A stretch of 64,000 bases of DNA from Melastoma dodecandrum (Eukaryota; Streptophyta; Magnoliopsida; Myrtales; Melastomataceae). Positions within the stretch are counted from its first letter, which is position 1; the number at the start of each line of letters is the position of its first letter. A program made the position numbers and the translations under genes. Of this stretch, positions 19,915 through 60,035 are shown piece after piece. Under the pieces are notes generated by a model that made no database searches, was not told the origin of the DNA, and saw nothing but the letters and a program-made list of their open reading frames with translations. The stretch covers positions 2,807,501-2,871,500 of the forward strand of contig JARUPY010000602.1 of the NCBI GenBank assembly GCA_029817715.1, read 5' to 3'.

Positions 19915-20250
19915 CTATTATGTTTTTATTTGAAGATATGTATTCGACATCGAATTTATAATAGCTAAACCATTCCTGCAACCTCAAAAGTCTAGTCTGC
20001 CTAGTCTCTTTGAGGTTCAGACTCATAAACCTTTTTACATAGGCTGAGTCAGAACGCACTAAAAATTTCTTTGGTGCCAAAAAGATGTAAAAGCTTTTAT
20101 TCCATTTTTTAAAACCAATACCTCTTTTTCGTGTATCGGGGTATCGGAGTTCGTACCCCTTGAAACTACCCGACCAATACTTATAAACGGGTTCGGGCTT
20201 TCTTCCTTTAATTTTAAGGACAGCCCCCCAAAACTCGTTAGAAACATCAA
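19841..20250 (-). pseudogene. RNase H of pararetrovirus
   Basis: Readable parts include DVSNEFWGAVL near 20230-20262, KKFLVRSDSAYVKRF near 20050, and the end motif NIIDDSLSREL near 19920. This is the layout of caulimovirid RNase H following reverse transcriptase. A frame change lies between 20059 and 20250. No integrase follows. Confidence 0.75.
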
Positions 20251-20289
20251 TTTTCAGGACTAGCTCATCTTTATCAGATGGTAAAGAGA

Positions 20290-21133
20290 GTTAAGGTAAA
20301 TTTTTAACCTTTCTCTTAATACTCTGAATAGCATGAGTATCATCATCTTCCCATAGCCAAAGATTCACAGAAGATGTCTCCTTTGAAATCCTCCCTAAAT
20401 CTTGGGAAAGATCTTTCACAAACTTCCTAGCATAGTTAACAAATCCACAAAATCTCTAGACTTGTTTTCTATCTTCAAGTCTGTCAGGAAATTCGACAAT
20501 TTTCTCTACAATATGATTTTGTAATTTAATTTTTTCTTTTTCGATCTCCCTGCCAAGAAAATTAACCGATTCCTTAAATCATTCTATCTTTCTTTCTGAT
20601 ACAATCATGCACTCCTGTCGGAAGACATCAGTCACCTTATCAAGGTGCCTCATGTGATCGTCTTCAGTCTGATTGTAGACTAACACATCGTCTATGTAGA
20701 CCGCACAAAATTTTCGGATCTGCTTGAAAGCAATATCTATTTTGCGCTGAAATACTCATGGAGCATTCTTCAGGCCGAACGGCATCACCAGCCATTCAAA
20801 CATTCCCTGTGGAGCATTAAAAGCAGTTAGAGGAGCCGAATCTTCTTCCATCTTGACTTGCCGGTAACCACTTTTCAAGTCAAATTTAGAAAAGAATTTT
20901 GGTTGGCTCAAACTAACCCTATCAATTAAATCTCCTGTAGTAAGAATCTTATAGCCATCATCTTTAGTAGCTTTGTTAAGCTGACGATAGTCTATAGCCA
21001 TTCGTGCTTTTCCCCGCACCTGCTCGGCATGATTTATTACCATAAAGGCAAGACTAGAATGCGGACTGTAGCTATCCCTAATCAAGCCTTTTCCAAACAA
21101 CTCAGGAATTTGTTTCTCAAATTCCTCAACCAT
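20290..21133 (-). pseudogene. Reverse transcriptase of pararetrovirus
   Basis: The open part 20756-21133 has KARMAIDYRQLNKATK, FFSKFDLKSGYRQVKM and FEWLVMPFGLKNAP, all classic reverse transcriptase blocks. After an in-frame stop near 20755 the catalytic YIDDVLVY is readable at about 20674-20704. The thumb/connection region continues to about 20290 with two further stops. The overall type is Ty3/Caulimoviridae. Confidence 0.85.
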
Positions 21134-21184
21134 CTCAGTTGTGTATGTAATGTTTCTGGCTCTTATAATGGTTCCGGGATCTTT

Positions 21185-36197: not shown

Positions 36198-37064
36198 CCG
36201 ATTCGTTGGTATGGCTGATGGTATTTCGCGTCCATAAGTAACCTCATAACTTGTGATTTAATATAAGGGCTCATTTTAGGAGGCTCTCTGGTGGGATCTT
36301 CACGATGGTTTATAGGTATTCCTTGCTTCTTTTGGTTGTACGCTTTGAAAAATAACCACACTCGTGCTTGTAAATACCTCGTACTTGTAATCGACCGTTA
36401 TCATATGTGTAAATAGACACATGTATATGTTGAAGTGGAAACCAAGTTCCACGTTGGCTCCAAGCTAGTATATAATTCAAACGTACTACTTCCTCTATCA
36501 TCAATTAATTTTAGAATGAGATTTGGACGGTTCGGGTATTCCAACACTATATGCGTCTAGGCAGCCACGGTAAGTACAGTGCAAACTATTGTTTCACCTC
36601 TTAATAAGGGGGAAACTCCCCCTTTTTCCTTCCTTTTCGGTTGAGATCAAACACAGCTGAGTGGTATGTATAGCTCAACTGAAAAGAGAGAGTTCATGGA
36701 AGATCTCCAATCCGCTCAACACCGTGTGCGATAGAGTTTCAGATTACTTGATGCATTGGCGAACTATCACAAAGTTAGTCATCTGTTCGCCTGCCGATTA
36801 TGACTTTGAGGAATGAAAATGATATTCCTCAATGATTGATAGTAAAGTACAGTGCCGCATACAGGTGTTCATATTTCTCCGACCTTCTTGACAAATGGGG
36901 ATCACATGACCGCACCAGGATCATCTCCCTTGGGTGATTTTCTGTATGTTTTGGTCTTTCAATGTGCTTCCCGGATATTTCCCCTCGAAATGGAATGCTC
37001 CCGGTGCCATCTCCTCAAGCCGCAAGGGTTCGCACCAACAATTTCCGCGAAGACGGCTTCTACC
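36198..37064. other. CBP60 3' flank and Gypsy insertion site
   Basis: No gene is recognised. The left copy of the Gypsy target duplication, CTACC, is at 37060-37064. The interrupted sequence resumes at 50034. Confidence 0.5.
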
Positions 37065-38127
37065 TGTTCGCCTATAGAACGGATCACGTCGGAAATATTT
37101 GGCAAAGGACTCACAGGAATTGAGTTTGTGGTCGCCAATAAGAAGATGCACAATTTTATTGAAACTAAATGCAAGTCTTACAATCTTAATGAACAAAGAA
37201 AACAGGGCTTACAGCCATTAGAAGTGGAAAAAGTGCAAGTGTCGACAACGATGTGGAAATCTGTGACGGCGGAGAACTGGTGACGAAGGCCTTGGAAGCT
37301 CGCTCCGTCGGTGGTAGTTGCTGGCGGGGATCTGTGACGAAGGCCCTACGAGCTCACTCCGTCGGTGGTGTCGCTGGCGGAAGATTGACGGCAAAGGCCC
37401 TACGAGCTCACTCTGTCGGTGGAAGGGTAGTTGACCTAAAAACCGGGTCAGGGCATCTAATTCCTAAGGTTGACGAACAAACTTCAGAGTTTTTGGCTGT
37501 GTATGGTCGTGTTTTGTCTTTGGAAACTCCTTTGCTATTTATAGAGAGCTCGTACGTGTCTAACACGTAACGAGTGGATCTTGTTACAGATCGTGTCATG
37601 GATCGTGATTCCTAGTATCGTGGGAGTGTCCCAACAACTCCCCATGAGATACGGGATCACGTTCCTGAAAATTAGAATCGGTTACGATTCTTAACAATCG
37701 TGACTTTAGGAATAAATAAATTTATTCCCATCTCGTCGACTTGCTTTGTTTGCACGGGCTTTGGCTGCTTGCCTTTGTTCAGGATAATGTCGACTTGACC
37801 CTATAAGTAGACCTAGCTACTATTGGGTCATATTGGTAGTCATATCTTAGTGGTGAGTTGACCTAGTCGACTCTATAAATCGTCTTTAGTAACTCCATTG
37901 TGGGTCGACTTCATCATGAGTTATCCCAACTGACCTCGTCATGAGTCGACCTGGATGACTTCGTCATGAGTTAATCCAGTCGACCTCATTATGAGTCGAC
38001 CTGGGCGACATCGTTCTGAGTTAGCCAGTCGACGTTGTCATGAGTCGGCCTGGGCGACTTCGTTCTTAGGCAGTGTGATGATTCCTGGGCTCTAAGCCCA
38101 GGCCCAAAATTATTTACTATGTCAACA
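37065..38127 (-). repeat. Gypsy 3' LTR (1063 bp)
   Basis: It contains three tandem units of about 55-60 bp (TGACGAAGGCCCTACGAGCTCACTCCGTCGGTGG type) at about 37262-37430. A TATA box read on minus (CTCTATAAATAG) lies near 37540, and a run of CATGAGTCGACCTGGGCGAC-like units lies at about 37900-38070. Confidence 0.96.
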
Positions 38128-38128
38128 T

Positions 38129-38142
38129 AAGCCCCCCTTTTA
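38129..38142 (-). promoter_or_regulatory. Gypsy polypurine tract
   Basis: The minus strand reads AAAAGGGGGGCTTA just before the 3' LTR. Confidence 0.8.
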
Positions 38143-38182
38143 TGCTGGGTTAGCTACGCTGACTTAGCAAAAAATTATGCCC

Positions 38183-38190
38183 TATATAAG
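38183..38190 (+). promoter_or_regulatory. TATA box of the antisense PMD gene
   Basis: TATATAAG lies 56 bp from the LTR end and 148 bp before the PMD start codon at 38331. The intervening leader is C/T-rich. This suggests the captured gene has a promoter of its own, possibly with upstream elements supplied by the LTR read backwards. Confidence 0.6.
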
Positions 38191-38330
38191 GGAGAGTGAG
38201 CGTCCTTTTCCCGCCCATCTCCTTACTTGCTCGACACTCCTTCCTCCTCAAGAAACCCAGAAAACCCTCGTTCTTGAAACTCTCCGTCCCTTCCATCTCT
38301 TTCACCAAAATCTCTCCGATCTTCAAAAAG

Positions 38331-41285
38331 ATGGCAACTTTCAAATCCTTCGAACTCCACAATGCTCGTGCGGGGCCGGCCGGACCTGTTCCGGTCGCGG
38401 AAGACCAAGGATCGGGCGTCGCTCTTGGACCCATCTTGCCGGAGCATCTGTTTCCAGAAGTGGTGCCACTCAACTACCTCATCACAGAGAAGCCTATCCC
38501 GGTTTGTCATCCCAACTTTATTAATCCCCTCAACTGGGAAAAGCAGGGGACCTTTTTGTGCTTCCCTTCTGCTACTAAGGCCGAGATGATAGAGTGGTTA
38601 GAGATGTGGGAGGATCATTTTGAAAATCGATTCAGGGACCAGAAGATTCTCAGATTTTTTAGGATGTCAATAGCTAGTAAGAGCTGTGATCCTAGGGTTT
38701 GTGCGGCTATTCTGCCTTTCTGGAACTCCACAGTGAACTGCTTCTATTTCCCAGAAGGCCCTATGTCCATCACTTTGGCAGATTTGAAGTTTTTGACCCG
38801 GAGCAAGATTAATGGCTGCCCAGTGCGTCAATATGCCCAGGCAGGAGACATTAGTCCAAAGGGAGCCCTTCAATATATGGAAGTGGTAAACAGACACTTG
38901 CAGATGGCCTCAGTGGGCAAGAAGAAGGGGGAGAAGCGTACGACCGCAGGGTTCGGCGCCCAGGAAGAGATCGAATTTCTCAGCACCTGGCTGAGCAAAT
39001 TTGTCTATTGTTTCCCTGGGAAGAAGGTTGGCCATACGTCTTACGCAGTGGCAAACTTTTTGAGGGAGACTACTGAAGAAGTCGCCTGGGGTCCCTTCAT
39101 CCTTGGTCTGCTTTACCATGATCTGGAGAGGGCGACTTCTCAAATTAAGCCATTCCCAAAGCATCCAGCAGGAGGCATGCTTTGGTTGGTCCATCTATGG
39201 TCAGCCATGTGGATGCCAGGGTTGACTGGATTCAAGGTCCCCACGACGCCCCCTGAGGCTTTGTACTATGGGGAGAGCATCTTGAATCGATGCTGCCAGC
39301 GCAGAGACCACTGGCTCCCGACTTCAGTTACTGGCCATATGAAGCATATAGCTGATTTCGCGAGAGCAGATCGACGCGACTGGGCGCCTCTCCCAGGTCA
39401 CAAAACAATTGCCCAAAAGGTCGACCCCCAGATCGCTCCAGGCTTTTGGAACGGGGCTCTCACTAGCAGGGATTTGCCTGTAGTCTTCGACAACTACCTG
39501 TCCTTTGAAGTCTATAACCCTCAGTTGTGCGCAAGACAGTTCGGGTTCATCCAGAGTGCGGCGGTCCCTTTTGTTGATGCCACTGGTGGCCTACTTGGAA
39601 GGGCGACGAAGATCCCGTGCAGGTCGGGTGACGACAAGTTTCTGGAGTTGCTTAGCAGAAAGGCGCAACTCCTCAAGATGGAGTTCCCATCCAGTTCCTT
39701 CTCTTGCTTCGCCACACAGTTCTTCACTGTGTTGTGGTCATCCATGTATGAGGAGCTGCGATCCTTGATGCACTTCCTCGAGGTCTCCGACGAACCCGAT
39801 TTCTATCTTGATGATGCTCAACTCAAAGCGAGAGGTAAGGACTTAGCTTTGTCTAAACAGCATGGAGTTCTTAATATTATACCTAAGTTTTCTCTTCTTC
39901 TTTTCCTTTTAGGATCATTACTTCCTCGGGGCCCCAGCAAAGCGAAGCTCAAAGCCCCCCTTGCCCCTGGTCCCTCCAAGCCCAAGCCGATCGACAAGGG
40001 AAAGGCCAAAGTCGCAGGCCCCAAGCGAACGACTAGAGGCGACTCTTCTAAGGCCAACGTCGCCTCAAAACGCAAGGAAATCGAAGAGGAAGAGGAGGAA
40101 GACCCCGATGAGATGCCTCTATCAAAGAGGAGGAAGTTGGTGAGAGTACCATCTCTAGTGACGGCTCCTCTTCCCAAGTCGCCGACTACCGTAGCGGCGA
40201 CTTCTTCTTCCAGGTCGCCAGCAGCGGTGGCCCTACTCAGATCGCCAGTAGTGAGTTCATCATCTGCTGCGGCGCCTGCGACCTCATTGACGGTCGATAT
40301 CGCTCGAGGAGCGACTACAGAGGTATGACTCTACTGATTCTAATTCATCTTGAGCTCCTGTATCTAACTCGCACTATATTGCCTAGGGCGAAGCTTCAAC
40401 CGGAGATGGTGGCCAACCTACTCCCTCTGTGTTCGAGACAGGTCCAACGACTTCAATCGCCGAGGTGAGCCCGACTCCTTGCTAAGATATATTACTCTAG
40501 TTCGTATATGAACTTTGGTTTTATTATACTCTATTCTAGGAAGAGCAGGCTCCTGAAGTCTTGTTACCAGAAGAAGGAACCGCTATGGTTTTACTCGATC
40601 CTTTAACTTGGTCGACGCGAGAGGAGGCACCACCTCAGGCGATGCGAGAGGAGGAAGAACAAGACGTTCCTTCTTCTTCAATCCACACTCCTGCACCACC
40701 AATGGTATGTGTTCTTCTTTCACACAAAGCATGGCGTTGTTATCGCGACTCTAACCGCGACACTTGACAGGCTCGTCCGAAGAGAGTGAAGACGACTGCT
40801 GGTCGCACGAAGGCTCCTACTCCTCCCACTTCTTCGGGCGAAAGCTCTGAGGATTTACTACCTTCGGAGGTAAGTATTCGATTGCATGAAAGTGTCGACT
40901 TTTCAGGATACTGTGTCTTAGCAACATTTCATTTCTTTTTCTGCAGGATCCTGCTGCAGCGACCTCGACTAGCGACTCATGGATGAAGCTTCACGAAGAT
41001 GTTGAAGAGTTGTGCCAGCTTCTGCATATCGATCCGTTAGAGATCTACTCATTTAAGAGGATGCAGAAGCTGGTTAAAAGAATCGAGGCTTCCCCTTGGG
41101 TCACGGATGAATTGTTGGGGGCCTGCAAGAATTTTAAGTCGACGTACTGGACCCGTTGGAGGGATTATGACGCCGACTTGCTTATCTTGGAATCGACTGA
41201 CTCGAAGATTCAGTTGATCAATCAAGCTCGAAAGCAGGCCTCTAAAGCTGCACAGGACGCCCGCCAGCGTTTGGTCGACGTGTAA
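38331..41285 (+). CDS. Plant mobile domain (PMD, aminotransferase-like) protein, captured, antisense in Gypsy element
   Basis: Exons 38331-39834, 39913-40322, 40387-40464, 40540-40704, 40771-40869 and 40947-41285 join in frame to 864 residues. ATG 38331 is the first good start after the TATA box. The PMD fills about residues 50-490: PRVCAAILPFWN, FYFPEGPMSITLADLKFLT, WLSKFVYCFPG, LLYHDLE, LWLVHLWSAMW, VYNPQLCARQFGFIQ. A Pro/Lys/Ser-rich disordered region with KRKEIEEEEEED and SKRRKLV (possible nuclear signal) follows, then the start of a coiled coil. PMD proteins (MAIN/MAIL1 group) act in the nucleus in gene and transposon silencing, and PMDs are often found in transposons. Intron 1 is 78 bp and could be read through without a stop. 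A TAA at 41283 ends the frame early. Confidence 0.85.
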
Positions 41286-41519
41286 GAAAAGCTGACCGAG
41301 GCAGAGAGGCAGATAGAGTTTTATACTAACCTCAAGAATGACCTGACTCGGCAGCTCGCGTCGATCAACACTCAGGAAATCGAGGAGCTGGAGACCAGGG
41401 CTAGAGAAGAAAAAGAAAAGGTCGTTGACCTCTATGCCCAGCGGAATAGGGTGAACGCGAAGCGCCGAGCTCGCGAGTCCCTTATCTTCGATTTCAGGAA
41501 GGCTGGCGGTTTTGATTAG
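41286..41519 (+). pseudogene. Coiled-coil C-terminal extension of antisense PMD gene after a stop
   Basis: Directly after the TAA at 41283-41285 the same frame stays open for 77 codons to a TAG at 41517-41519. It encodes a typical coiled coil (EKLTEAERQIEFYTNLKNDL, then EIEELETRAREEKEK) with a basic end. This is the coiled-coil tail seen in related PMD genes. The stop is probably a recent nonsense change. Confidence 0.7.
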
Positions 41520-41655
41520 ATGATTTGTAATTAGAACGACAATATAATCACATTGCTTTCACTTTAATCGATTGAGCATGTCGTTTCTCAAGCTAATCTC
41601 TGCGCATAATTATTCTTCTGGAGAATATCACTTGGGCGAAGTTTAGCGCGACCCC

Positions 41656-44600
41656 CTAGGAGTTAAGCGCTTCCCAAATCAATGGAATCCTTCGTTTTAG
41701 GATTCCACGATGAGCTTCCCAAATGGTCTCGCGGTAGGGCTTAAGATATTTACCATTGACCTTCAATGGATGTTTATCCCCTTCTCTGGTCATAAGTCGA
41801 TATGTGTTAGACGAGTATGTCTTGCACACTTCATGTGGACCCTCCCAATTAGGAGACCATTTACCCAGGACTTGGTCCTTCGATTTAAGAGGTAGGACCA
41901 TCTTCCATACTAAGTCGCCCACTTTGAAGCGCTTATGGACAACCTTTTTATTATAATGCCTAGCAATTCTTTGCTTATGTACCTCGAGTCGGTCTATTAC
42001 ATCGAGTCGCTTCTTTTCCAATTCTTCTAAAGCGAGGTACATTGCTTCGTCTTGCAAGTCAGGATGAGCTACCCTGAGCGACTTGTATCGGATCTCAATA
42101 GGTAGGACAGCATCTTGCCCATATACCAGCGAAAAAGGGGCTTCTCCTGTGCTGTCTCTCTTGGTGACTCTTAAAGCCCACAAGGTGTCTTGTAATAGTT
42201 TGTGCCATTCTCTTGGATTTGCACCAACCATTTTTTTAATGTTATTCTTTATGAGCTTATTAGTAGCTTCAGCTTGTCCATTCGACTGGGGGTAATAAGG
42301 TGTCGAATTTGTGATTGAAAAGCTGAACTCGGCGGCGAATTCACGCACCTTCTCATTATTGAAAACGGCGCCATTGTCCACTACAATATTCTGGGGAATC
42401 CCGAATCTATAAATGATGGAAGATCTGAGAAAATTGATCACCTCTTTGTGGTCAATTTTCTTATATACTTGAGCCTCGACCCACTTGGTAAAGTAGTCAG
42501 TAGCGACTAGAATGTATGCGTCGCCTTTACTCGAGTGTGGGTGAATCTCCCCGATTATATCCAGGGCCCAAGTCCTAAATGGCCAAGGCTTAATGACTGA
42601 GATTAAGTCGGACGCTGGAGCTCTCGTCGCAGGACCATGCTTTTGGCACTCTTGACATCCTCTAGCCATTTCTATGCAATTTTTTAGCATTGATGGCCAG
42701 TAAAATCCATGTCTTTTAATGACCCAAGACATCTTAATGCCTGATTGATGGGATCCACATAAACCTTGATGAGTTTCTAACATTATGGGAGTCGCCTCGT
42801 CTAAGTCGACACATCTTAGCAGTACTCCTTCCTTGGTTTTCCTGTAGAGTACTCCATCTATGAGGGTATAAGACAAAGCCTGAGTCTTAATTCTTCGGCT
42901 TGCCTTTTGAGCTGGGTCCGTCAGGAAGTCGATGATGGTCTGTCTCCAATCTTTATCGCTTACCAATATGTCCAATGCGAACAAGTCGCTTTGTGGGACT
43001 AAATGAGAAGCTATTTCGGGGACACAATTGTTTCTTCCTCTAGCCTTGTATCCCGAAGCTTTTTGGGCTAAGTCGTTAGCGATGGTGTTTTCCTCCCGGC
43101 CTACAAAGAGGAAAGTAATTGTTTCGAACCGCTCGACTAGCTTTCGAGCGACTTGATGATAAGGTGCGAGTTTCTCTTGACATAGAGAGTCGCCATTCAT
43201 CTGGTTAATAACCAGTTGAGAGTCTCCCATTACTCTAGCTCTCCTGGCTCCCAAGGTTAATAATTCCTTCAAGAGCGTGATCAACGCTTCATATTCAGTC
43301 GCATTGTTTGTATGAGTCGCCGACAAACGATATGCTAGGCGAACGTCTTTTCCTAGTGGCGAAAGTATGTGGAGGCCTATGCCTACGTCGGATTTCGCCG
43401 AAGATCCATCAAACCAAGCTTGCCAGACATTCTCAATGGATTCCTCCTGATCGATTGATGTAGATGGATCGTGGTTCACTAAGAAGTCGGCTAAGACCTG
43501 TCCTTTCACCGACTGTTGAGGTTTGAAACGCAGATCGTATGCGGATAGGACCAAGCTCCATTTACTAATTCTTCCGGTCAATAGGGGACTTTCGAAAAAG
43601 TATTTCATGACTGGAGACTTGGCAATGACATGAACCTCTTGGGATCCGATATAATGTCTCAGCTTCTTAACAGCATAGAAGACTGATAGGCACAACTTTT
43701 CCTTAATTGTATAGCGCTTTTCTGTGGCAGTCAGTTGTCTTGACAAATAGTAGACTGCTCTCTCAGTTTTGTCCTCCGCCTCTTGGGCTAACATGGCACC
43801 GATGACTGATTCAGTCGCTGCCACGTAAAGCAGATAGGGCTTTCCTATCCTAGGAGGGGCAAGCACAGGCGGCTTCATTAAATACTCCTTTAAGCCTTCA
43901 AATGCTTTTTGGTGCTCGTTGCTCCACACAAAATTTCCCTTCGCCTTCAGTAAAGTCGAAAAAACTTCTGTCCGTCCAGCGACGTTACCAATAAATCGCC
44001 TTAGATAATTGATCATCCCTAAGAAAGCCTGTAACTGCTTCTTATTACTCGGAGGGTTCAATCTTTGAATGGAATTTACTTTGTTCTGGTCGACTTCTAT
44101 GCCACGTTGATGGACTAGGAACCCTAGGAAATGTCCTGCTCTGACTCCGAAAGCACATTTGAGAGGGTTTAGTTTGAGCTGATGCTTTCTCATTTGAATG
44201 AAAGCATTTCTAAGGTCATTAACATGTGACTTCTCATCCTGCGACTTGACCACTATATCGTCTATGTATACTTCGACTGTTTTGTTAATCGAGGCATCAA
44301 ATATAGCGTTCATGGCTCGTTGGTAGGTTGCCCCAGCGTTTTTGAGTCCGAATGGCATGACTACCCATTCGAAAATGCCTAAGGGACACCTGAACGCAGT
44401 TTTATGGATATCCTCCTCAGCTAGGAAGATTTGGTTATATCCTGAAAAACCATCCATGAAGGACATAATTTGGTGCCCTGCAGTCTTGTCAACTAAGTCG
44501 TCTGCGATAGGCATGGGGTACTCATCCTTTGGAGTGGCACGATTCAAGTCTCTGAAATCGATGCAAACTCTAATCTTACCATTCTTCTTAATGACGGGAA

Positions 44601-45225
44601 CTATACTGGATATCCATTCGGTGTACCTCGATGTCCTTATATATCCAGCTTTAAAGAGTTTCTTGACTTCCTCGAATACTGCTTGAGTGACTTCATGAGT
44701 CATTCTCCTGGGCGCTTGTTGGACTGGTTTAAATCCCGTTTTGATTGGTAACTTGTGTTCCACAAGTCGGCGATCTAGGCCAGGCATCTCAGTGTAATCC
44801 CAAGCGAAACAGTCTTTAAACTCTTCTAGAGTAGCTTTGATAGAATTGAAAAGTTCTTTATTCATTGAGGAACTGATGAAAACAATTCGAGGGCTTGATG
44901 CCTCGCCTAAATTGACGCTCACGAGTGAGTCACATGGCATCATCAGTGACTCACGACTCTGGACACCGCCTAAATCGGTGTCAACGTTATTACAAGACCT
45001 GGCTTCGAGATTGATGCTGCTTATTTGGCATCCTACTTTCCTAGACATCCTAACATGCTTCTGAAGTCGCTGTAGGATATCAGCGACTGCATGACCTTTC
45101 TCCTTACTGTCCATACATCCCTTCGTGTAGGAGTCTATCGGGCTCCAACTCCGTCGCAGTGCTCTCCTGGCTCTTAGGCGCTTCTCCCTTGTTGCCGCTT
45201 GGGCTGTTGTTCGTCTCGCCTTCAT
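41656..45225 (-). CDS. Gypsy pol: reverse transcriptase, RNase H, archaeal-type RNase H, integrase
   Basis: An intact frame of 1189 residues. Reverse transcriptase: RVCIDFRDLNRATPKDEYP, FMDGFSGYNQI, EWVVMPFGLKNAGATYQR, VYIDDIVV (near 44270). First RNase H: YLLYVAATESVIGAMLAQE to KLRHYIGSQEVHVI. Second RNase H: WFDGSSAKSDVGIG, NNATEYEALI, VMGDSQLVINQ, the Tat hallmark. Integrase: HHCC finger (HQGLCGSHQSG ... CQECQKHG), D in WALDIIGEI, D in VVDNGAVF, E in GQAEATNKLI, and a C-terminal GDLVWKMV/WEGPHEV domain without a chromodomain. All catalytic residues seen are present. The frame overlaps gag-PR by 122 bp and is shifted by +1, so expression needs frameshifting or splicing. The true pol start is unknown. 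Confidence 0.95.
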   Translation of the reverse strand: MKARRTTAQAATREKRLRARRALRRSWSPIDSYTKGCMDSKEKGHAVADILQRLQKHVRMSRKVGCQISSINLEARSCNNVDTDLGGVQSRESLMMPCDSLVSVNLGEASSPRIVFISSSMNKELFNSIKATLEEFKDCFAWDYTEMPGLDRRLVEHKLPIKTGFKPVQQAPRRMTHEVTQAVFEEVKKLFKAGYIRTSRYTEWISSIVPVIKKNGKIRVCIDFRDLNRATPKDEYPMPIADDLVDKTAGHQIMSFMDGFSGYNQIFLAEEDIHKTAFRCPLGIFEWVVMPFGLKNAGATYQRAMNAIFDASINKTVEVYIDDIVVKSQDEKSHVNDLRNAFIQMRKHQLKLNPLKCAFGVRAGHFLGFLVHQRGIEVDQNKVNSIQRLNPPSNKKQLQAFLGMINYLRRFIGNVAGRTEVFSTLLKAKGNFVWSNEHQKAFEGLKEYLMKPPVLAPPRIGKPYLLYVAATESVIGAMLAQEAEDKTERAVYYLSRQLTATEKRYTIKEKLCLSVFYAVKKLRHYIGSQEVHVIAKSPVMKYFFESPLLTGRISKWSLVLSAYDLRFKPQQSVKGQVLADFLVNHDPSTSIDQEESIENVWQAWFDGSSAKSDVGIGLHILSPLGKDVRLAYRLSATHTNNATEYEALITLLKELLTLGARRARVMGDSQLVINQMNGDSLCQEKLAPYHQVARKLVERFETITFLFVGREENTIANDLAQKASGYKARGRNNCVPEIASHLVPQSDLFALDILVSDKDWRQTIIDFLTDPAQKASRRIKTQALSYTLIDGVLYRKTKEGVLLRCVDLDEATPIMLETHQGLCGSHQSGIKMSWVIKRHGFYWPSMLKNCIEMARGCQECQKHGPATRAPASDLISVIKPWPFRTWALDIIGEIHPHSSKGDAYILVATDYFTKWVEAQVYKKIDHKEVINFLRSSIIYRFGIPQNIVVDNGAVFNNEKVREFAAEFSFSITNSTPYYPQSNGQAEATNKLIKNNIKKMVGANPREWHKLLQDTLWALRVTKRDSTGEAPFSLVYGQDAVLPIEIRYKSLRVAHPDLQDEAMYLALEELEKKRLDVIDRLEVHKQRIARHYNKKVVHKRFKVGDLVWKMVLPLKSKDQVLGKWSPNWEGPHEVCKTYSSNTYRLMTREGDKHPLKVNGKYLKPYRETIWEAHRGILKRRIPLIWEALNS

Positions 45226-48200
45226 CCTTGGTCGTGACTACTTCTTGCAGGACCTCATCTATGTCCTTGTCTGTGAAGTCGGGCCCCCATCCTAGGGGTC
45301 CGACTGTGGGGTCTCCCAGCTTGTAGCGCTGATCCAAAGTAAGGTCCTTGATTGTCTTACACGTCTCTGTATGCAAAATACCCTTGTCACAACAGGAGTA
45401 TTCATCAGCCTTAACGATTTCTATCTCGGAGTCAAGCCATAAGATTAACTCCCTATGCAAAGTAGATGGAATCGCGGCGGCCTTATGAAGCCAATCGCGT
45501 CCTAAAAGCGCATTAAATGAAGGGGCTATATCGATTACAAAGAAAGCAGTTTCCTGCTCGTGTCTCCCGACGCCTAGGCGCACGGAGCATATGCCCAGGC
45601 ACTCGGATTTTCTCCCATTAAAGCCACTTACAGCTACGTCTGTTCGCACCAACTCGCTAGGCTTGTACCCAAGTAATCTAAACTTGGCAAGGGGAAGAAC
45701 ATTGACAGTGGCGCCATTGTCTATTAAGACTCGGCCCACTAAGACACCATCAAAGGTGGCTGAGATATACAGCGAATGCATATGCTGTTTCATGCGATCT
45801 GATGGTTTCCTCAACCAGTGCAGAGGGAAGCCAGAAGGAAATGTAATGACTTTAGAGTCGAGAGTTTTACCTTCCGGTGCCTCCGACTTGTTGTTGCAGG
45901 CGAACTCCGCAGGGAGGGTAAGAGCGTTGCAGCTCACGAGGGGCCTTTGCTCTGCGTTGAAGTCGCAGGGCTTATCTCCTCGTAGAGGAGTGTAGTCAAA
46001 GCTCGAGCCTGGGTCTTCCGAGTAGTCAGTAGACTCGACTCGCTCGGGCTCTGCGACTTGTTTCCCTGTGGCATGGTTCCCGCCAAAGGGTGGTATCACA
46101 GGGGTCATTCTTGGTTTCTTCTGGGCGTGACTTAGACGCCTTTCTTTTCTCTTTTGAGCCCTTACGGGAAGCGTAACCTTCCTTTCCGCCTTCTGCCATT
46201 GAGACGAAGGGTTAAGTGCTTTGACGAACCTTGGTTTCTTAGAACCAAAAGGAAGTCGACTTACCTCCACAAACCTTCCGTCAGCTGGGTCATATCCTAC
46301 CTGCACAGGGTTATCTGCTGGCCTATTCGAAGAGGGCTTGTTAGGGTTCGAATTACCTGAGCCCTCAGGACAGACTGCCTTCACCAGCATCTCCCCTTTT
46401 GCGGATAAGTCGACGAGACGCAAGAAGTAGTTAACGCAGCATGCTGTGCAGAGCTGGGTGATGAGTATGCGGTTGTGAGCGATCAGCTTGCACTTTTGGC
46501 ACAGCAGCTTTTCGTCCAGGAATTGGGCAATAGGTGGCCCCCTCCGCAGTTCCTGAGGATCAACTGTCTGCGACGCGTAGCGGGGCCTGCGATTCACGGC
46601 CTGCTGAGGTTGGTCCGCTTCCTTATGCTCCTCTACCGGTCTAATCTCCTTGACAGGGGTAGTTCTAGTGTACCCCTGTTTGATGACCCTTTGGCCAGAC
46701 GAGTCTATGAACTCCAGTCGCCGTGCCGGGCGTTCTGTTCCCCGGGCGACTGCCTCTCCATTCCCCTTGTGACCCTGGGGACCTCCTCTTCCTCCTCGCA
46801 AGGTTAATCGACAATCTGCGCTAGGAGGGCTTTTGAGGGCGTGAGAAGATCCTCGGGAAGTGTTCAGCGACATTGCTGCTTCCTCAAACGGGGTCAGGTC
46901 GTACCATCCCTCCGTCTTGCTGTCCAGTAGGTATTTCTTGAACGTGTGGCACTGATCCGTAGTATGAGTGTCGTTCAAGTGCCAGTGGCATAGCCACTTC
47001 TCCCTTCCTTTGGGCAATATGAAGACCCCACGCTCAGCCAGTCGCTTCATCAGAGCATTAGCCACCAAAGTTTCGCCGGTTGCTTGTAAGTCCTGCGAGG
47101 GTTCAGCAGAGTCGTTAATAACTTCTAAGAGATTAACCTCAGCATCAAATATGTCAAACGTATGAATGGCGACTTCATCCCCGAATGGACTATCATCCAC
47201 CACGGCGACTTCGTCGACCTCGGGAAAACGGAGCTCTTTAGACTCTATTAAATCCTGGATGATATTTCTAAAGGACAAACAGTCCTTGGTAGCATGGGTG
47301 AAGGACCCATGCCACTTGCAGTAATTCCTATTCTTTTCCCTCTCTGTCTGAGGGACTCGATGGCCGGGCTTAAGCCTAATCCTTTTCCTTTGATATAGCC
47401 AGTCGAATATAGCGTCGACTTTATCCGTGTCGAAAGAATATTTTCTTTCCTCGGCATTCTTTTGGGATGCCTTAGCTTTGGAATTCTTCTTAGTCAGGGG
47501 ATCGCATATAGTCGACTCCCCCTTGACAAATTCAGCCACGTCGACTTCATAAGTGTCGACTTGGTAGGCTCGAGTCAGCTGAGCTTCCTCTGTAAGGAGC
47601 TGATAATACTCAGTAGCCCTCCTTGCTAAGTCATACAGGTCAGCAAAGCGCTCGCCCTGCAGCTTTTTCCGGAACGGGATAGTCAGCGCATTTAATGCGA
47701 GAAGTAATTGATCCTTCTCCGGTATGGGGGGTGTACACCGCAGTAGGGCCTTCCTAAGTTTCATTAGAAACTGCCCTGGGTGTTCTCCGTTAGCCTGTTT
47801 AAGGCGCATTACCTCAAACATCGACATGGGGGTGTCCAGTCGAGCAAAGGTCTTAACGAACATAGACTGCATCTGAGTCCATGAGGCTACTGACCCTGGT
47901 GGCAGACTCGCATACCACGTAAAGGCATCTCCCGTTAATGAGTTAGGGAAGAGCTTCAGTTTCCAAAAGTCGTTCCCAGCCGCCTCACCAAGTTGGTGAG
48001 TGAAGCGAGCGACATGCTCGAGTGGGGTCATTTCATCCTCACCCAAAAAACGAGTGAAGTCGGGCACCTTATAACCTCTAGGTAGAGGGAAATCCCTGTC
48101 GACATATGCAGGATAGGGAGACCTGTACAAACAGGCATCGTCTCGCCGAGCTATTCCGGGGACGACTTGCTCTATAACCTGAGTTATGGCCTCCCTCAAG

Positions 48201-48943
48201 TCTGGGGGTACACCGCCTACTGGGACCTGCGCTGGAGGTCGAGTCGACCTTATCGGGCTGTACGGAGAACTTTCCCCCATTGTCTGATTCGCTGGATTCC
48301 TCACGTAGAAGGAAGGCTCCTCCCGAAAGTTTCCACCTCGGGATCCAAACTCATAGGGGTCTCCAGTCGCGTCGATTACAGGTTCTTTTCCAGGGCGATG
48401 AGACGGAATAAAATCCTCCCCTCGATCTGTTTCCTCCTGAAAGTCCTCTGCCTCATTCCAATACGTATTCGTTGGTTGATTACGTGAAGAAGAGGGTCGA
48501 CCAGGGGGAACCCGATTCCCGGGTTCGAAAAGAGCATTTGTCCTTATGTCGGATTGCTCAAAAGTCACGTTACGTGGCCCTTGAGTAGTCCTGCGAGCGT
48601 CTGCCATGAACGTAGACTCCCTAAAGGGGGCCTCTCTCATACGAGGTCTTACTCTTTCCTCGTCTCTCGGGCCAGAAAGACGCCCTATTAGAGTTTGGAC
48701 ATCCATTAGAATACCCTTCATATCAGTCAACTCCTGACACACATCCCCCAGTTCCTTGTGGAACTCCAGTCTTGAAATAAATTCGGACGGGGTATGTGAA
48801 TCAAAAGTGGACTGGTTTGTAGCTGCCTGGCCTCCTAGGGCCGGCGCTGGCAAGTCCATTCCCGGAGGAAGTTCTGACTGATTTTCCCCATTTAAAGGAT
48901 TTTGAGACTCATGGGCAGTAGTACTTCGAGTATTTCTCGGCAT
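45104..48943 (-). CDS. Gypsy gag and aspartic protease
   Basis: The start is placed at ATG 48943, just after the primer site. The open frame extends back into the LTR, but that part is not expected in the protein. 1279 residues. The gag core (FWKLKLFPNSLTGDAFTWYASLP) is at about residues 318-400. Two zinc-knuckle-like units, CKWHGSFTHATKDC and CHWHLNDTHTTDQC, follow (C-x2-H forms are common in Tat elements). A CQKCKLIAHN segment comes next, and then the protease with VLIDNGATVNVLP at about residue 1069 and LLGRDWLH after it. Asp-Asn-Gly replaces the usual Asp-Ser/Thr-Gly. The frame is fully open, which fits the very young insertion. Confidence 0.93.
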   Translation of the reverse strand: MPRNTRSTTAHESQNPLNGENQSELPPGMDLPAPALGGQAATNQSTFDSHTPSEFISRLEFHKELGDVCQELTDMKGILMDVQTLIGRLSGPRDEERVRPRMREAPFRESTFMADARRTTQGPRNVTFEQSDIRTNALFEPGNRVPPGRPSSSRNQPTNTYWNEAEDFQEETDRGEDFIPSHRPGKEPVIDATGDPYEFGSRGGNFREEPSFYVRNPANQTMGESSPYSPIRSTRPPAQVPVGGVPPDLREAITQVIEQVVPGIARRDDACLYRSPYPAYVDRDFPLPRGYKVPDFTRFLGEDEMTPLEHVARFTHQLGEAAGNDFWKLKLFPNSLTGDAFTWYASLPPGSVASWTQMQSMFVKTFARLDTPMSMFEVMRLKQANGEHPGQFLMKLRKALLRCTPPIPEKDQLLLALNALTIPFRKKLQGERFADLYDLARRATEYYQLLTEEAQLTRAYQVDTYEVDVAEFVKGESTICDPLTKKNSKAKASQKNAEERKYSFDTDKVDAIFDWLYQRKRIRLKPGHRVPQTEREKNRNYCKWHGSFTHATKDCLSFRNIIQDLIESKELRFPEVDEVAVVDDSPFGDEVAIHTFDIFDAEVNLLEVINDSAEPSQDLQATGETLVANALMKRLAERGVFILPKGREKWLCHWHLNDTHTTDQCHTFKKYLLDSKTEGWYDLTPFEEAAMSLNTSRGSSHALKSPPSADCRLTLRGGRGGPQGHKGNGEAVARGTERPARRLEFIDSSGQRVIKQGYTRTTPVKEIRPVEEHKEADQPQQAVNRRPRYASQTVDPQELRRGPPIAQFLDEKLLCQKCKLIAHNRILITQLCTACCVNYFLRLVDLSAKGEMLVKAVCPEGSGNSNPNKPSSNRPADNPVQVGYDPADGRFVEVSRLPFGSKKPRFVKALNPSSQWQKAERKVTLPVRAQKRKERRLSHAQKKPRMTPVIPPFGGNHATGKQVAEPERVESTDYSEDPGSSFDYTPLRGDKPCDFNAEQRPLVSCNALTLPAEFACNNKSEAPEGKTLDSKVITFPSGFPLHWLRKPSDRMKQHMHSLYISATFDGVLVGRVLIDNGATVNVLPLAKFRLLGYKPSELVRTDVAVSGFNGRKSECLGICSVRLGVGRHEQETAFFVIDIAPSFNALLGRDWLHKAAAIPSTLHRELILWLDSEIEIVKADEYSCCDKGILHTETCKTIKDLTLDQRYKLGDPTVGPLGWGPDFTDKDIDEVLQEVVTTKDEGETNNSPSGNKGEAPKSQESTATELEPDRLLHEGMYGQ

Positions 48944-48946
48944 GTT

Positions 48947-48964
48947 CTCCCACTGTGGTCGCCA
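48947..48964 (-). promoter_or_regulatory. Gypsy primer binding site
   Basis: The minus strand reads TGGCGACCACAGTGGGAG, six bases inside the 5' LTR. It starts TGGCGAC as expected for tRNA-Arg-type primers used by Tat elements, but the match beyond the first seven bases is imperfect. Confidence 0.6.
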
Positions 48965-48970
48965 AAAACG

Positions 48971-50033
48971 TGTTCGCCTATAGAACGGATCACGTCGGAA
49001 ATATTTGGCAAAGGACTCACAGGAATTGAGTTTGTGGTCGCCAGTAAGAAGATGCACAATTTTATTGAAACTAAATGCAAGTCTTACAATCTTAATGAAC
49101 AAAGAAAACAGGGCTTACAGCCATTAGAAGTGGAAAAAGTGCAAGTGTCGACAACGATGTGGAAATCTGTGACGGCGGAGAACTGGTGACGAAGGCCTTG
49201 GAAGCTCGCTCCGTCGGTGGTAGTTGCTGGCGGGGATCTGTGACGAAGGCCCTACGAGCTCACTCCGTCGGTGGTGTCGCTGGCGGAAGATTGACGGCAA
49301 AGGCCCTACGAGCTCACTCTGTCGGTGGAAGGGTAGTTGACCTAAAAACCGGGTCAGGGCATCTAATTCCTAAGGTTGACGAACAAACTTCAGAGTTTTT
49401 GGCTGTGTATGGTCGTGTTTTGTCTTTGGAAACTCCTTTGCTATTTATAGAGAGCTCGTACGTGTCTAACACGTAACGAGTGGATCTTGTTACAGATCGT
49501 GTCATGGATCGTGATTCCTAGTATCGTGGGAGTGTCCCAACAACTCCCCATGAGATACGGGATCACGTTCCTGAAAATTAGAATCGGTTACGATTCTTAA
49601 CAATCGTGACTTTAGGAATAAATAAATTTATTCCCATCTCGTCGACTTGCTTTGTTTGCACGGGCTTTGGCTGCTTGCCTTTGTTCAGGATAATGTCGAC
49701 TTGACCCTATAAGTAGACCTAGCTACTATTGGGTCATATTGGTAGTCATATCTTAGTGGTGAGTTGACCTAGTCGACTCTATAAATCGTCTTTAGTAACT
49801 CCATTGTGGGTCGACTTCATCATGAGTTATCCCAACTGACCTCGTCATGAGTCGACCTGGATGACTTCGTCATGAGTTAATCCAGTCGACCTCATTATGA
49901 GTCGACCTGGGCGACATCGTTCTGAGTTAGCCAGTCGACGTTGTCATGAGTCGGCCTGGGCGACTTCGTTCTTAGGCAGTGTGATGATTCCTGGGCTCTA
50001 AGCCCAGGCCCAAAATTATTTACTATGTCAACA
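48971..50033 (-). repeat. Gypsy 5' LTR (1063 bp)
   Basis: Near-identical partner of 37065-38127. The TATA box on minus near 49446 would drive the genomic RNA toward lower coordinates. Confidence 0.96.
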
Positions 50034-51285
50034 CTACCTCCCTCCAATTCATGCATCGAATCTTGAATTGTGTCATCCACATATAGAATACATTGGAAGT
50101 TACGAAATGGTCGTCGCGATTTGATTAATCAAAGGCTACGTCCTCGAGCGATATCCCCGAAATTGGACAAGGATATAATTATGTATGTTCTTGACTTGGT
50201 CGCGGAAGTCCCTAGCTCCATCAAAATGATTTGGTAAGTCAAGAGAATATCGAAAAGGCTACTCGGATAATATACAAATTTTGTTCGTAGGAGATGAAAT
50301 GGCGCCGAACTGATTGCCGATGTCTTCGCATTTAAGTTTTTCTTTTGGCAAAATATCTACTTTCAGTCTAGAATTTGGCCAAAATAGTTTGCGTTAACTT
50401 AATCTGCTATGGTTTTCTCACCGACTTTTATTTTTATATTAATATTGATCAATCTTGAATTTCATCGTACGAAAGTTTATCATACGAAATGGGATAATAT
50501 AGCAACCTTCGTAAGTAGGGTTTTCTATTTTAGGATTTTGATGGCCAGATTAAATAAGTTAGAAGCCAAAGGGTTCGATAGTTATTAATGTAACCAAGAA
50601 TACACAAAATCGAAGAAAGACGGATGATAAGTCAGTCGTAGGGACCTCTGTTGCGAGGTAAAATGAACGATGAGGTAGATGAACACGAGTACGAGAAGTT
50701 GACGGTCCACTATTATATGACGCATATCAGACTTTGTTAAAAGTCTTATTTTGCTTTCGCGACCAGATCTAATATCAACGAAAAAATCAATATAAAAATA
50801 TAAATTAGTGATTAAGTTAAGTTCAAAAGAGGGAGTTGGCCTATGGTATAAAAAATATAATTATGTTATAATTGCGGTGCATTTTATTTTATAAAGTATG
50901 GTACAAAAATTATGACAACACTAAAGTCATTTGAAATGAATATAAATAATGTCGTTACTAATTTAATTAAAGGCTAGATACAGAGTATTTTATGTCCGGT
51001 CCACTGAGAGAATGCATATTTAATATTAAAGAATAGTGAGTGCCCTTTGTCCTTTTTAATATATAAAAGGACAAAAGAGGAGGCAGAAATTGACGGGCCA
51101 CCGTTAGTCCAAGGGCATTATTTATTTATTGATTGATCTATTGGGGTTTGTCTTTTCTGAAATGTCTAAAAAACACTTTGAAATTATTTAGATAATGTCG
51201 AGTATTAATAATTTCCCACTTTGGTGATATGAAAGAGTGCCTTAGCCTTCTAGACGTCCCATGCTATTACAGTGTAGATTATTAT
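50034..51285. other. AT-rich intergenic DNA
   Basis: It starts with the right CTACC target duplication. No gene is recognised up to the LRK10L stop codon. Confidence 0.45.
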
Positions 51286-57071: not shown

Positions 57072-60035
57072 ATGGCCCCCAAGAAAGCGGTTGATGACGA
57101 TGGGGGATGGTTTGCTTCTCTTGCTCGTCAACCTACTTCAGCTAATGGACTGATTTATGAGCTAGACTCGAGGACAGAGTGCACGATCTTGAGCAACGAC
57201 AATGCTCCTAGGATGGTGTTGGGTCCGACTTTCGACCCTGGTGATTCTAAGGCAAGGCAACTTGTCTCTGATCAATATCTGGAGACTATTGTCAGATGTC
57301 CTCTGGCTTATCTCCCTCAACTGAAAGACGTCCGCAGTTGGCACAATGCAAGACTTTCTTGCTTCCCTGTCACCCCAGCGTACTACACTAAGTGGGTCAA
57401 CCGGCTTGACTCCCACCTTGGGGGTAAATGGGACGTGTTGGGTATCCGTCAACTCGTTTTGTTAAGTGCGAAAGGGGTGTCAGCAGATGTGAATTTGTGT
57501 TTCGCGCTGTGCCTTTTCTGGAACCCTTGCTTGAACTGCTTTTTCTTCCCCGAGGGACCCATGTCCATCACGTTGGAAGACATCGAGGTTTTAACCGGTT
57601 GTTCTCCGGGGGGAATCGCTCCCAGCTACATAGCTCAGGAGTCGAATTCCTATACCATAACAAGAGGGTATTTTTCTTCGTATTCTGCCATTCTGAACAG
57701 ATATGTCTGGCTTGATACAAAAGCGAGGCCTTCCCATAGAGAGGAATTCAACTTCTATGTCTTCTGGCTAGCAAAGTTTATCTTTGGATGCCGTGGGTTC
57801 CATCCAAGCGGATTTTTTGCCCCGCTAGCAAGTCAACTGCTGAAGAACAGGAGGAATAGTGCCATTAAGTTTGATCATCTCCTTTTAGGACTTTTGTACA
57901 GATCTTTACATGAAGGGGCTGTCGCCAGAGGATTTCACAAGGAATGTTTTCCAATTCTCTCGGTTGGTGGTCCTCTATGGTTACTGCAACTGTGGGCACA
58001 GATGTACTTTCCATCCCTTGCCCCGAGCAATGGGGATTTCAGTGCAAACATACCCTGCTATGGATTGAAATTGGCTGGACTTTCCAAGAACAAGGTCGGC
58101 CATGGGGTCACCTACTACGTAAAGCAAATCCTTAGTTCAGGCCGAGGTAGTGATAGGAACTCAAGACTCTGGAGACCCTTCCCTCCGAATCATCCAGTCC
58201 TTGGAAGGAAAGATAGCCCTGGTCCAGGGTCCACTTCTTTCTGTCTCTGGTCTAATGTCTGGTGTCCAAAGGACTTATTCTTCCCCACAGTGGATGGAAT
58301 CGCTTGTGAGGTGTACAATCCACAGCTTTGCGCTCGGCAATTGGGATTTATCCAGGGATGTGCTATCCCATATTCCCGAGGACTTAACCAACATCTAGAC
58401 CAAAGGATTTGCATCCCCCTCAAAGACGCAGAGGTGTATCTCCAAGTCCCTCCTCGTTCAGATCCTGTTGAAATTCCCTCTTTGAAGACGACATCCTTGG
58501 GGGCGACGAAATCGTTCGAGATCCTATGGGAAGAGGTCTGGACTCGAGTGACATGGTATCTTCACAGGCTCTCTGATGTGCCTCATTTAAGAAAGCGAAA
58601 GAATGAAGGTAACAGTAGCCTCTCTTTTTCGTTGGTACTTCTTGTACGTAACTGTCATCTTGACTTCTTCCTGTGTAACTCGTTTATAATATTACAGATC
58701 AACCCTTAAGCTCTCGAGGCAAATTCGGGAAAACCAGAGCTAAGCCTGCTCAAATTGCTATCCTTGGAGGTGGACGAAGAGAAACTACACGCCCCCCTTT
58801 TCATATTCTCGGGGTTACTCCTACTACTGCTAGCGCTTCTGATCATGACATGACTGATGGAACACATGTTGAACCTAATGAATCCCTGGATAGAGCAGTT
58901 TGGTCTTCTTCTTCCTCCGATGGTGATGACAACGATGATGCTGCTAATGATGACGACGACGACGACAATGCTGCTAATGATGATGACGACAATGACGATG
59001 CTGCTAATGATGACGACGACGACGACGATGCTGCTAATGAGGATGATGATGATGATGACGACGATGCTGCTAATGATGACGATGACGACGACGATGCTGC
59101 TAATGATGATGATGACGAAGATAGAGCTAATGAGGACAATGACGATGATGATGCTAATGATGATGATGATGATGATGGGAAGGACGACAAAGGCGATGAT
59201 GAGGACGAAGATGGAGCTCAAACTACTGCTAGTAGTCCAACGAGCCATACTCCATCAACTTCTCCTGTTATGCCTAAAACAGCCGGATGCCAGGTATACT
59301 GGTTAATAGTGGTTCGTTCTTTATCATTCATTTCCTCCTTGAGACCATAAAATGCCAAAGCTTTGGTTTTAGGCTTCTTCCTCCTTGCCGTTGCATCTTC
59401 AGCTATTGGAGGAAGACACGAGCTCCTTCCGTCCATCAGTTGTCTTATCCCGGGATCAGGTCAAAATACAAGTGGAGGGTGTTCTTCGGATTCTAAGGGG
59501 CCCACTATCCGACAAGTCTTTCGAAGAACTGTCTCCCTTGTTGAAGGAGCTGTCGTCTCCCTTTGCTCCTTTTGATATCGCCAGTGCCTGCCACGGCTTC
59601 TTGAGGGAAGTACAGGAAAAGTGGCCATTATTTGAGATTGCCCAGGGGAAATTGACTTCCCTTGAGCAAAAGAAGCAAGATCTCGCCCAGTCCCTTGGAG
59701 ATATGTCTAAGCAAGGAGGAACGGTTCTATCGAGCTATGAACGTTCCCGAGACAGGCTGAAGACCCTCTGTTCCAATCGTAAGGAGGTTGATGCCGGGAT
59801 TACTGCCCTCCTTAAGGAAAGAGATATCCTGGACACGGAGATCGTGAATGCTGCAGATGAGCTTGCTCCCTTGCGCGAACAACTTATTCAATCCAAAGCC
59901 AAGGAAGAAGAACACAAGCGGGCTACAGTAGACTTGTTTTCGGAAATCAGCGACGTTCAATCGAGTCTCAGGCAGCGAAATTCATGCATTGTAGATTTTG
60001 TTGATAGCTTGGAGAAGGCTTTGAAGTCTTTGTGA
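57072..60035 (+). CDS. Plant mobile domain (PMD) protein with acidic repeat and coiled-coil tail
   Basis: Exons 57072-58608, 58698-59293 and 59403-60035 join in frame to 921 residues. PMD at residues about 60-500: LCFALCLFWN, CFFFPEGPMSITLEDIEVLTG, FWLAKFIFGC, HLLLGLLYRSL, LWLLQLWAQMYFP, VYNPQLCARQLGFIQGCAIP. The second exon encodes a disordered region with a long Asp-rich array (DDDDDAAN units). The third encodes a coiled coil (SLEQKKQDLAQSLGDMS, LREQLIQSKAKEEEHKRA). Nuclear function in silencing is inferred from MAIN/MAIL1 relatives. I see no LTRs around it, so it may be a host gene or an old capture by another element. No damage is seen. It is a paralogue of the PMD gene at 38331. Confidence 0.85.
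58915..59210 (+). repeat. Asp-codon tandem repeat (GATGCTGCTAATGATGACGACGAC type)
   Basis: Repeats of about 27-36 bp made of GAT/GAC runs separated by GCTGCTAAT encode (D)4-8-AAN units, at least six copies. This is likely to vary in length between alleles. Confidence 0.9.

Follow-up and report, generated by a model that had tools for sequence, protein, structure and literature searches.

An intron-bearing plant mobile domain gene in antisense orientation, a probable accessory gene of a Tat-type Ty3/Gypsy retrotransposon family in Melastoma dodecandrum

Transposition through RNA should strip an element of introns within one cycle. How can a gene with five introns lie inside such an element, and does it belong to it? 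This question was raised by a 64,000-nucleotide stretch of the Melastoma dodecandrum genome (assembly GCA_029817715.1, contig JARUPY010000602.1, positions 2,807,501 to 2,871,500 of the forward strand), referred to here as the window. It contains a Tat-type Ty3/Gypsy retrotransposon of 12,969 bp (37065-50033, minus strand), and between its pol gene and its 3' long terminal repeat (LTR) a six-exon gene encoding a plant mobile domain (PMD, PF10536) was found on the plus strand. A preliminary description, made from the sequence alone, had proposed such a gene, and the domain matches, the strand and the spliced frame all agreed with it. The element is very probably a young copy of an abundant family whose standing set comprises gag-pro, pol and an antisense, intron-bearing PMD gene with a promoter-like box. 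We conclude that this PMD gene is a selected accessory gene and that its antisense placement lets its introns outlast retrotransposition.

The gene is preceded by a TATA box at 38183-38192 (TATATAA starting at 38183), at a distance of 56 bp from the LTR, which ends at 38127; the distance is as first described. Exon 1 (38331-39834) carries the PMD match at residues 112-410 (E 2.6e-22; 79.9 bits against a curated cut-off of 34.9) and is followed by intron 1 (39835-39912, 78 nt, phase 1) and by exon 2 (39913-40322), a low-complexity segment with the basic cluster SKRRK. The spliced translation continues through intron 2 (40323-40386, 64 nt), exon 3 (40387-40464), intron 3 (40465-40539, 75 nt), exon 4 (40540-40704), intron 4 (40705-40770, 66 nt), exon 5 (40771-40869), with the basic cluster PKRVK, and intron 5 (40870-40946, 77 nt) to exon 6 (40947-41519), which is charged and, by eye, coiled-coil-like. 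All of these features lie on the plus strand, and the five GT-AG introns, the first in phase 1 and the others in phase 0, were as originally reported. A frame running to 41519 could not be maintained for the window copy, as an in-frame TAA at 41283-41285 had been missed; it truncates the protein to 864 amino acids (aa). The end of the PMD gene and the end of pol converge, 136 bp apart.

The gene strand could be read without a stop for up to 712 codons, and none of 300 mononucleotide shuffles exceeded 213. Since this run exceeded the shuffles and the gene was also retained at 29 further loci in the genome, it was not regarded as a product of chance. At E values up to 1 the antisense gene matched only PF10536, and no match to TRP28 (Transposase_28, PF04195) was obtained. 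Structure prediction of exon 1, carried out with 13 sequences, gave a mean pLDDT of 36, too low for use.

Other copies of the element were sought in the window's own genome (373 Mb, 607 contigs). A DNA search with the region between pol and the 3' LTR gave 41 matches, with the best 40 of 534 candidates scored; 37 matches were full length with 95-100% identity. All 30 loci that were cut out, the window's included, had an LTR match on one side, pol on the other and the PMD gene in antisense, with the LTR match partial in several loci and rearranged in locus L033. Because this set had been found through the PMD region itself, a second search was performed with pol (query 42400-44900; 40 matches, the best 40 of 1768 candidates scored). 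The PMD was present in antisense at the expected place in 40/40 of these matches, and none was without it. Its distance and strand were checked by hand for 30 of them, in the match lists of the PMD region and of the M. candidum protein P0001, and the other 10 were analyzed with 151-bp probes at the expected site of exon 6, all of which matched exon 6 in antisense. The copies scored in these searches were the best matches only; the counts are lower bounds and describe the best-scoring copies, not older ones. A nested insertion and a capture in a single copy were ruled out by the 30/30 loci and the 40/40 pol matches, and the PMD gene could be assigned to the element itself.

The signals of the gene were compared in 30 aligned copies. 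The ATG was conserved in all of them, and the TATA box TATATAAGGG was identical in all of them. Splice donors were kept in 149/150 cases and acceptors in 150/150, the single departure being the GT of intron 3 (29/30). The whole spliced frame was open in 12/30 copies and exon 1 alone in 21/30; for pol, the final 499 codons were open in 18/30. The stop codon of the window copy was private (1/30 copies). Retention of intron 2 would introduce an in-frame stop in 29/30 copies, the intron being readable through in 1/30.

Twenty further copies were examined for target-site duplications (TSDs). Both LTR ends were readable in 12, and 10 of these 12 had their own matching 5-bp TSD, as counted after sliding to the LTR start; the raw alignment edge gave agreement in 6/20. 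In 8/20 copies the two LTRs were not comparable within the sequence pieces used. Among the 12 copies with clean LTR ends, LTR divergence ranged from 0 to 1.55%. We infer that each copy with a TSD had gone through genomic RNA with its introns surviving. The persistence of antisense introns through retrotransposition, put forward in the preliminary description, was supported by these 10/12 copies and by the 299/300 splice-site dinucleotides kept in the 30 aligned copies.

In the genomic RNA, introns in antisense appear with CT...AC borders and remain unspliced, and reverse transcription would thus restore them intact. The antisense transcript starting from the promoter-like box would be spliced to give the PMD protein, and the genomic RNA would keep the antisense introns, so that reverse transcription would return an intact gene. 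With its PMD, its basic low-complexity middle and its coiled-coil-like end, the product would work in the nucleus as an accessory protein, serving the family in trans. The maintenance of both the protein and the introns through RNA copying suggests that the element needs the PMD protein.

One alternative is that the gene is a passenger derived from a host PMD gene, which was inserted or captured a single time and has since been carried along without benefit to the element. This was addressed with pairwise ratios of non-synonymous to synonymous divergence (dN/dS, omega) in the 435 pairs of the 30 copies, with 95% intervals from a codon bootstrap; these intervals serve only as guides, since the pairs are not independent. 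Omega was 0.16 (0.10-0.26) in the PMD domain, 0.23 (0.16-0.34) in exon 1 and 0.56 (0.41-0.81) in exons 2-6, with 0.42 for exon 2 and 0.42 (0.25-0.75) for exon 6. At the end of pol it was 0.21 (0.16-0.27). Purifying selection on the PMD is about as strong as at the end of pol. In the control frames of exon 1, omega was 1.08 (+1) and 1.15 (+2), and 0.98, 0.28 and 1.28 in the three reverse frames, so that four of the five controls were near 1.

A passenger would account for the 18/30 broken spliced frames and for the weak constraint on the C-terminal exons. Nevertheless, the PMD domain is constrained to a degree similar to the pol end, the share of broken frames resembles that of pol itself, and the gene is present in all of the pol-ascertained copies. 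Between the two types of PMD described below, omega was 0.07-0.09 over a synonymous divergence (dS) of 1.5. The pairwise selection tests contradicted a neutral passenger, which was rejected and is now hardly credible, and the neutral decay of the frame that had been named as a possible refutation was not observed.

Several observations count against a gene that is spliced, translated and selected throughout. The spliced frame was broken in 18/30 copies, the window copy among them, and intron 1, if retained, lacked an in-frame stop in 20/30. Divergence per site was 0.027 in the introns and 0.025 in the exons, in each case less than the synonymous dS of 0.050, and this low intron divergence is unexplained beyond composition or constraint. 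Splicing of the antisense gene is predicted from its sequence and from gene models, and among the seven aligned models of M. candidum only P0001 extends to the last exons, the other six ending earlier. Residues 1-111 (omega 0.39, 0.16-1.18) and 411-501 (0.62, 0.25-1.91) were indistinguishable from neutral. The low value of one reverse control frame (0.28) is probably a shadow of the coding frame, as third positions probably line up and the reverse strand of the region had no stop-free run above 170 codons. When shared and singleton changes were compared for their ratio of non-synonymous to synonymous changes, there was no difference in the whole gene (p 0.80), a borderline result in the PMD domain (p 0.052) and a reversed direction in exons 2-6 (p 0.72) and in pol (p 0.29); with null, borderline or reversed outcomes, pol included, this test says little. 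Finally, in the second-type gene L077 the acceptor of intron 3 was not AG at the aligned place and a stop was present in exon 1.

A profile search returned only proteins of another assembly, that of Melastoma candidum; the M. candidum proteins comprise 10 clusters with 31 member sequences. According to the available text of PMC9911893, the M. candidum annotation combines RNA-seq, homology and ab initio prediction. Intron 1 was removed in 7/7 of the M. candidum models aligned. In the alignment, the P0001 model had exons 1, 2, 4, 5 and 6, with junctions as in the window gene and without exon 3. In two further close models, P0002 and P0009, the PMD is followed by sequence from the antisense strand of the element's gag-pro (19/19 and 23/27 residues, respectively), and since they end in antisense gag-pro sequence, the antisense linkage of the PMD exists in M. 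candidum too. Both leave the PMD at exon 2, and for P0002 neither GT nor AG was found at the matching places of the window; its junction may have arisen by deletion, with joining at short homology, and not by splicing.

A second type of element PMD was found in the window's genome with P0001 as the query (46 places scored out of 15,947 candidates). P0001 is 68% identical to the element PMD of the window over the whole protein and 77% over exon 1. In 14/14 places where 1.2 kb was read, pol followed directly downstream in antisense with 86-94% protein identity, falling into two frames at locus L059. All four upstream pieces read for this type contained an LTR end, the same polypurine tract AAAAGGGGGGCTTA and a TATATAA at about the same distance. 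The genes L077 and L078 had five introns at the places of those in the window gene, with donors kept in 10/10 and acceptors in 9/10 cases. Splicing would be needed in both, as a retained intron 1 brings an in-frame stop. Compared with the window gene, the second type had a dS of 1.5-1.8, near saturation, and the omega of 0.07-0.09 given above. Additionally, the second type was present in 6/40 of the best pol matches (C498:3409743, C500:1471655, C471:57492, L084, L085 and L087), whose DNA is 95-97% identical to pol of the window despite the dS of about 1.5 between the PMDs. The PMD cassettes seem to be swapped among elements, perhaps through template switching.

The antisense RNA, rather than a protein, might be what matters, with convergent transcription tuning or silencing the sense RNA. 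The promoter box conserved in 30/30 copies and the convergence of the two genes at 136 bp would fit this, and such a role for antisense retroelement transcripts is discussed in the available part of PMC7264820. It would leave unexplained the selection on codons and the maintenance of splice sites and frame, and it is considered improbable.

If the protein is what is selected, its function may be sought in more than one nuclear step. Targeting of integration to chromatin, nuclear entry of the pre-integration complex or activation of the element's own LTR is a real possibility, though short of even odds. It is suggested by the basic clusters of exons 2 and 5 and by related antisense accessory proteins that are nuclear (Grande gene23) or carry the predicted DNA-binding TRP28, as far as the available parts of PMC7264820 and PMC11963269 describe them, and it is weakened by the ties of PMD proteins to silencing in Arabidopsis reported in the accessible parts of PMC5418596 and PMC7156037. 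Tentatively, the PMD product might instead sustain transcription of the family by disturbing the silencing that depends on host PMDs (MAIN/MAIL1-PP7L). The only ground for preferring counter-silencing is that MAIN and MAIL1, which are PMD proteins, take part in the silencing of transposable elements (TEs), as described in the text available from the same two papers. The anti-silencing suggestion of Ikeda et al. (PMC5418596, in the part available) concerns the PMDs of Mutator-like elements (MULEs). Functions in integration or in transcription from the LTR have about the same likelihood as counter-silencing. The fuller scenario, a eukaryotic gene kept in antisense as a counter-silencing factor against the host PMD pathway, with two diverged cassettes exchanged by recombination in the manner of an arms race, is speculative and rather unlikely.

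The preliminary description had also mentioned a decoy, which could derive from recent capture of a host MAIN/MAIL1-like PMD. Possible sources exist in the same genome, where L001 is probably a genic PMD and L002 a MULE-linked one. As stand-ins for MAIN and MAIL1 these showed no close similarity to the element PMD, which was 23% identical to L001 and 25% to L002; given the value for L001, decoy action by close mimicry is not evident. Furthermore, the two element types are already about 1.5 in dS apart, and Gypsy PMDs form clades of their own in the accessible part of Ikeda et al. (2017, PMC5418596). A recent-capture decoy is therefore very improbable.

The PF10536 search of the genome gave 139 matches, with the best 117 of 2690 candidates scored; the PMDs listed score higher than that of the window's element, which falls outside the listed matches. 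L002 has a MULE-like transposase end, with a SWIM-type CxC..CxH motif, directly before a PMD, in a eudicot, and L003-L008 have similar PMD matches. MULE-PMD fusions have been described in grasses and Amborella (Ikeda et al., PMC5418596, in the part available). A second PMD gene, 28% identical to the element PMD, lies in the window itself at 57072-60035 (plus strand); it is read as having three exons, with introns in phases 1 and 0, its product contains a long repeat rich in Asp and ends in a coiled-coil-like segment, and no LTRs were found around it. Its phase-1 GT-AG intron (58609-58697) follows the PMD at almost the position of intron 1 in the element gene, and this shared intron may thus predate the split of the two genes.

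The element was assigned to the Tat clade by the additional RNase H (RVT_3) found between RT_RNaseH and integrase. The order of reverse transcriptase (RT), RNase H, second RNase H and integrase is that given for Ogre and Retand in the available text of Neumann et al. (2019, PMC6317226). Three Ogre characters look to be present, namely a primer binding site (PBS) that is tRNA-Arg-like, gag and pol in separate frames, and a PMD in an extra open reading frame (ORF), but no ORF lies upstream of gag. An ORF placed in antisense after pol and before the 3' LTR is a Retand trait; TRP28, also a Retand trait, was not found in it. Ogre and Retand are thus both candidate subclades. A protein search with pol gave 2772 relatives, and none of the 120 listed carried a lineage label.

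Gypsy-encoded PMDs, which make up the PMD-A clades, are known (PMC5418596, PMC6317226), in the Tat group in the Neumann survey, which found a PMD in 57% of Ogre elements and took in extra ORFs from 250 codons upwards; the portions of these papers available do not describe a PMD placed in antisense at the 3' side and interrupted by five introns. The antisense ORFs of Retand elements also lie between pol and the 3' LTR in recent copies and are thought to be regulatory (Vicient, 2025, PMC11963269); they carry TRP28 in 97% of clusters, whereas the gene described here has a PMD, five introns and no TRP28 match, and the words intron and PMD are absent from the main text of that paper, as far as it was available. 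Gene23 of Grande (Gómez-Orte et al., 2013, via PMC7264820) is likewise an antisense accessory gene with its own promoter and a nuclear protein, and no PMD is named for it in the portion of that account available. Arabidopsis MAIN and MAIL1 (PMD-C), acting with PP7L, share the PMD family and a TE silencing pathway with this topic, but they are host genes, and the genic stand-in is distant. A further comparison is offered by HBZ of HTLV-1, which has a spliced form. As named in the available part of PMC11963269, HBZ is also an antisense retroelement gene encoding a nuclear regulator, but it belongs to an animal retrovirus, its protein is unrelated and its antisense promoter is within the LTR itself. 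Hence, Gypsy PMDs and antisense Tat ORFs are already known, and an antisense PMD gene with introns did not come up in our literature search; Gómez-Orte (2013) and Steinbauerová (2011) may hold part of this finding.

The remaining features of the element all lie on the minus strand. The LTRs are 1063 bp each (3' LTR, 37065-38127; 5' LTR, 48971-50033), differ at a single position (37138/49044) and are flanked by the TSD CTACC at 37060-37064 and 50034-50038. The polypurine tract AAAAGGGGGGCTTA (38128-38141) adjoins the 3' LTR, and the PBS TGGCGACCACAGTGGGAG is at 48947-48964. The PBS resembles the complement of the 3' end of a tRNA-Arg; ARAGORN found no tRNA in the window against which to check it. 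The gag-pro gene (45104-48943) starts from the first ATG past the PBS (48943), 3 nt beyond it. According to its domain matches, pol (41656-45225, 1189 aa) encodes RT, RNase H (RT_RNaseH, aa 461-563), a second RNase H (RVT_3/aRH, aa 611-723) and integrase (domains at aa 810-979). It overlaps gag-pro by 122 bp (45104-45225, minus strand) in a different frame. As in Ogre, pol may need a frameshift or an intron in sense orientation for its expression.

At a substitution rate of 1.3e-8 per site and year, the single LTR mismatch places the insertion some tens of thousands of years ago. No further copy or piece of the element was found in the rest of the window by blastn at E 1e-5. At 20141-21142 (minus strand) lies a fragment left from a different Gypsy pol, which has 30% identity to pol of the element. 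Two viral-contig scans gave no matches.

The family thus provides a natural case of a retrotransposon carrying a normal eukaryotic gene, with five introns kept in 30 copies and in two copies of the second type. If this interpretation is true, an intron-retaining accessory gene has been maintained in the long term by an element that replicates through RNA. Surveys restricted to continuous ORFs may miss or truncate intron-bearing antisense genes of this kind. Moreover, selection on the PMD about equal to that at the end of pol makes the reason why TEs carry PMDs a testable question.

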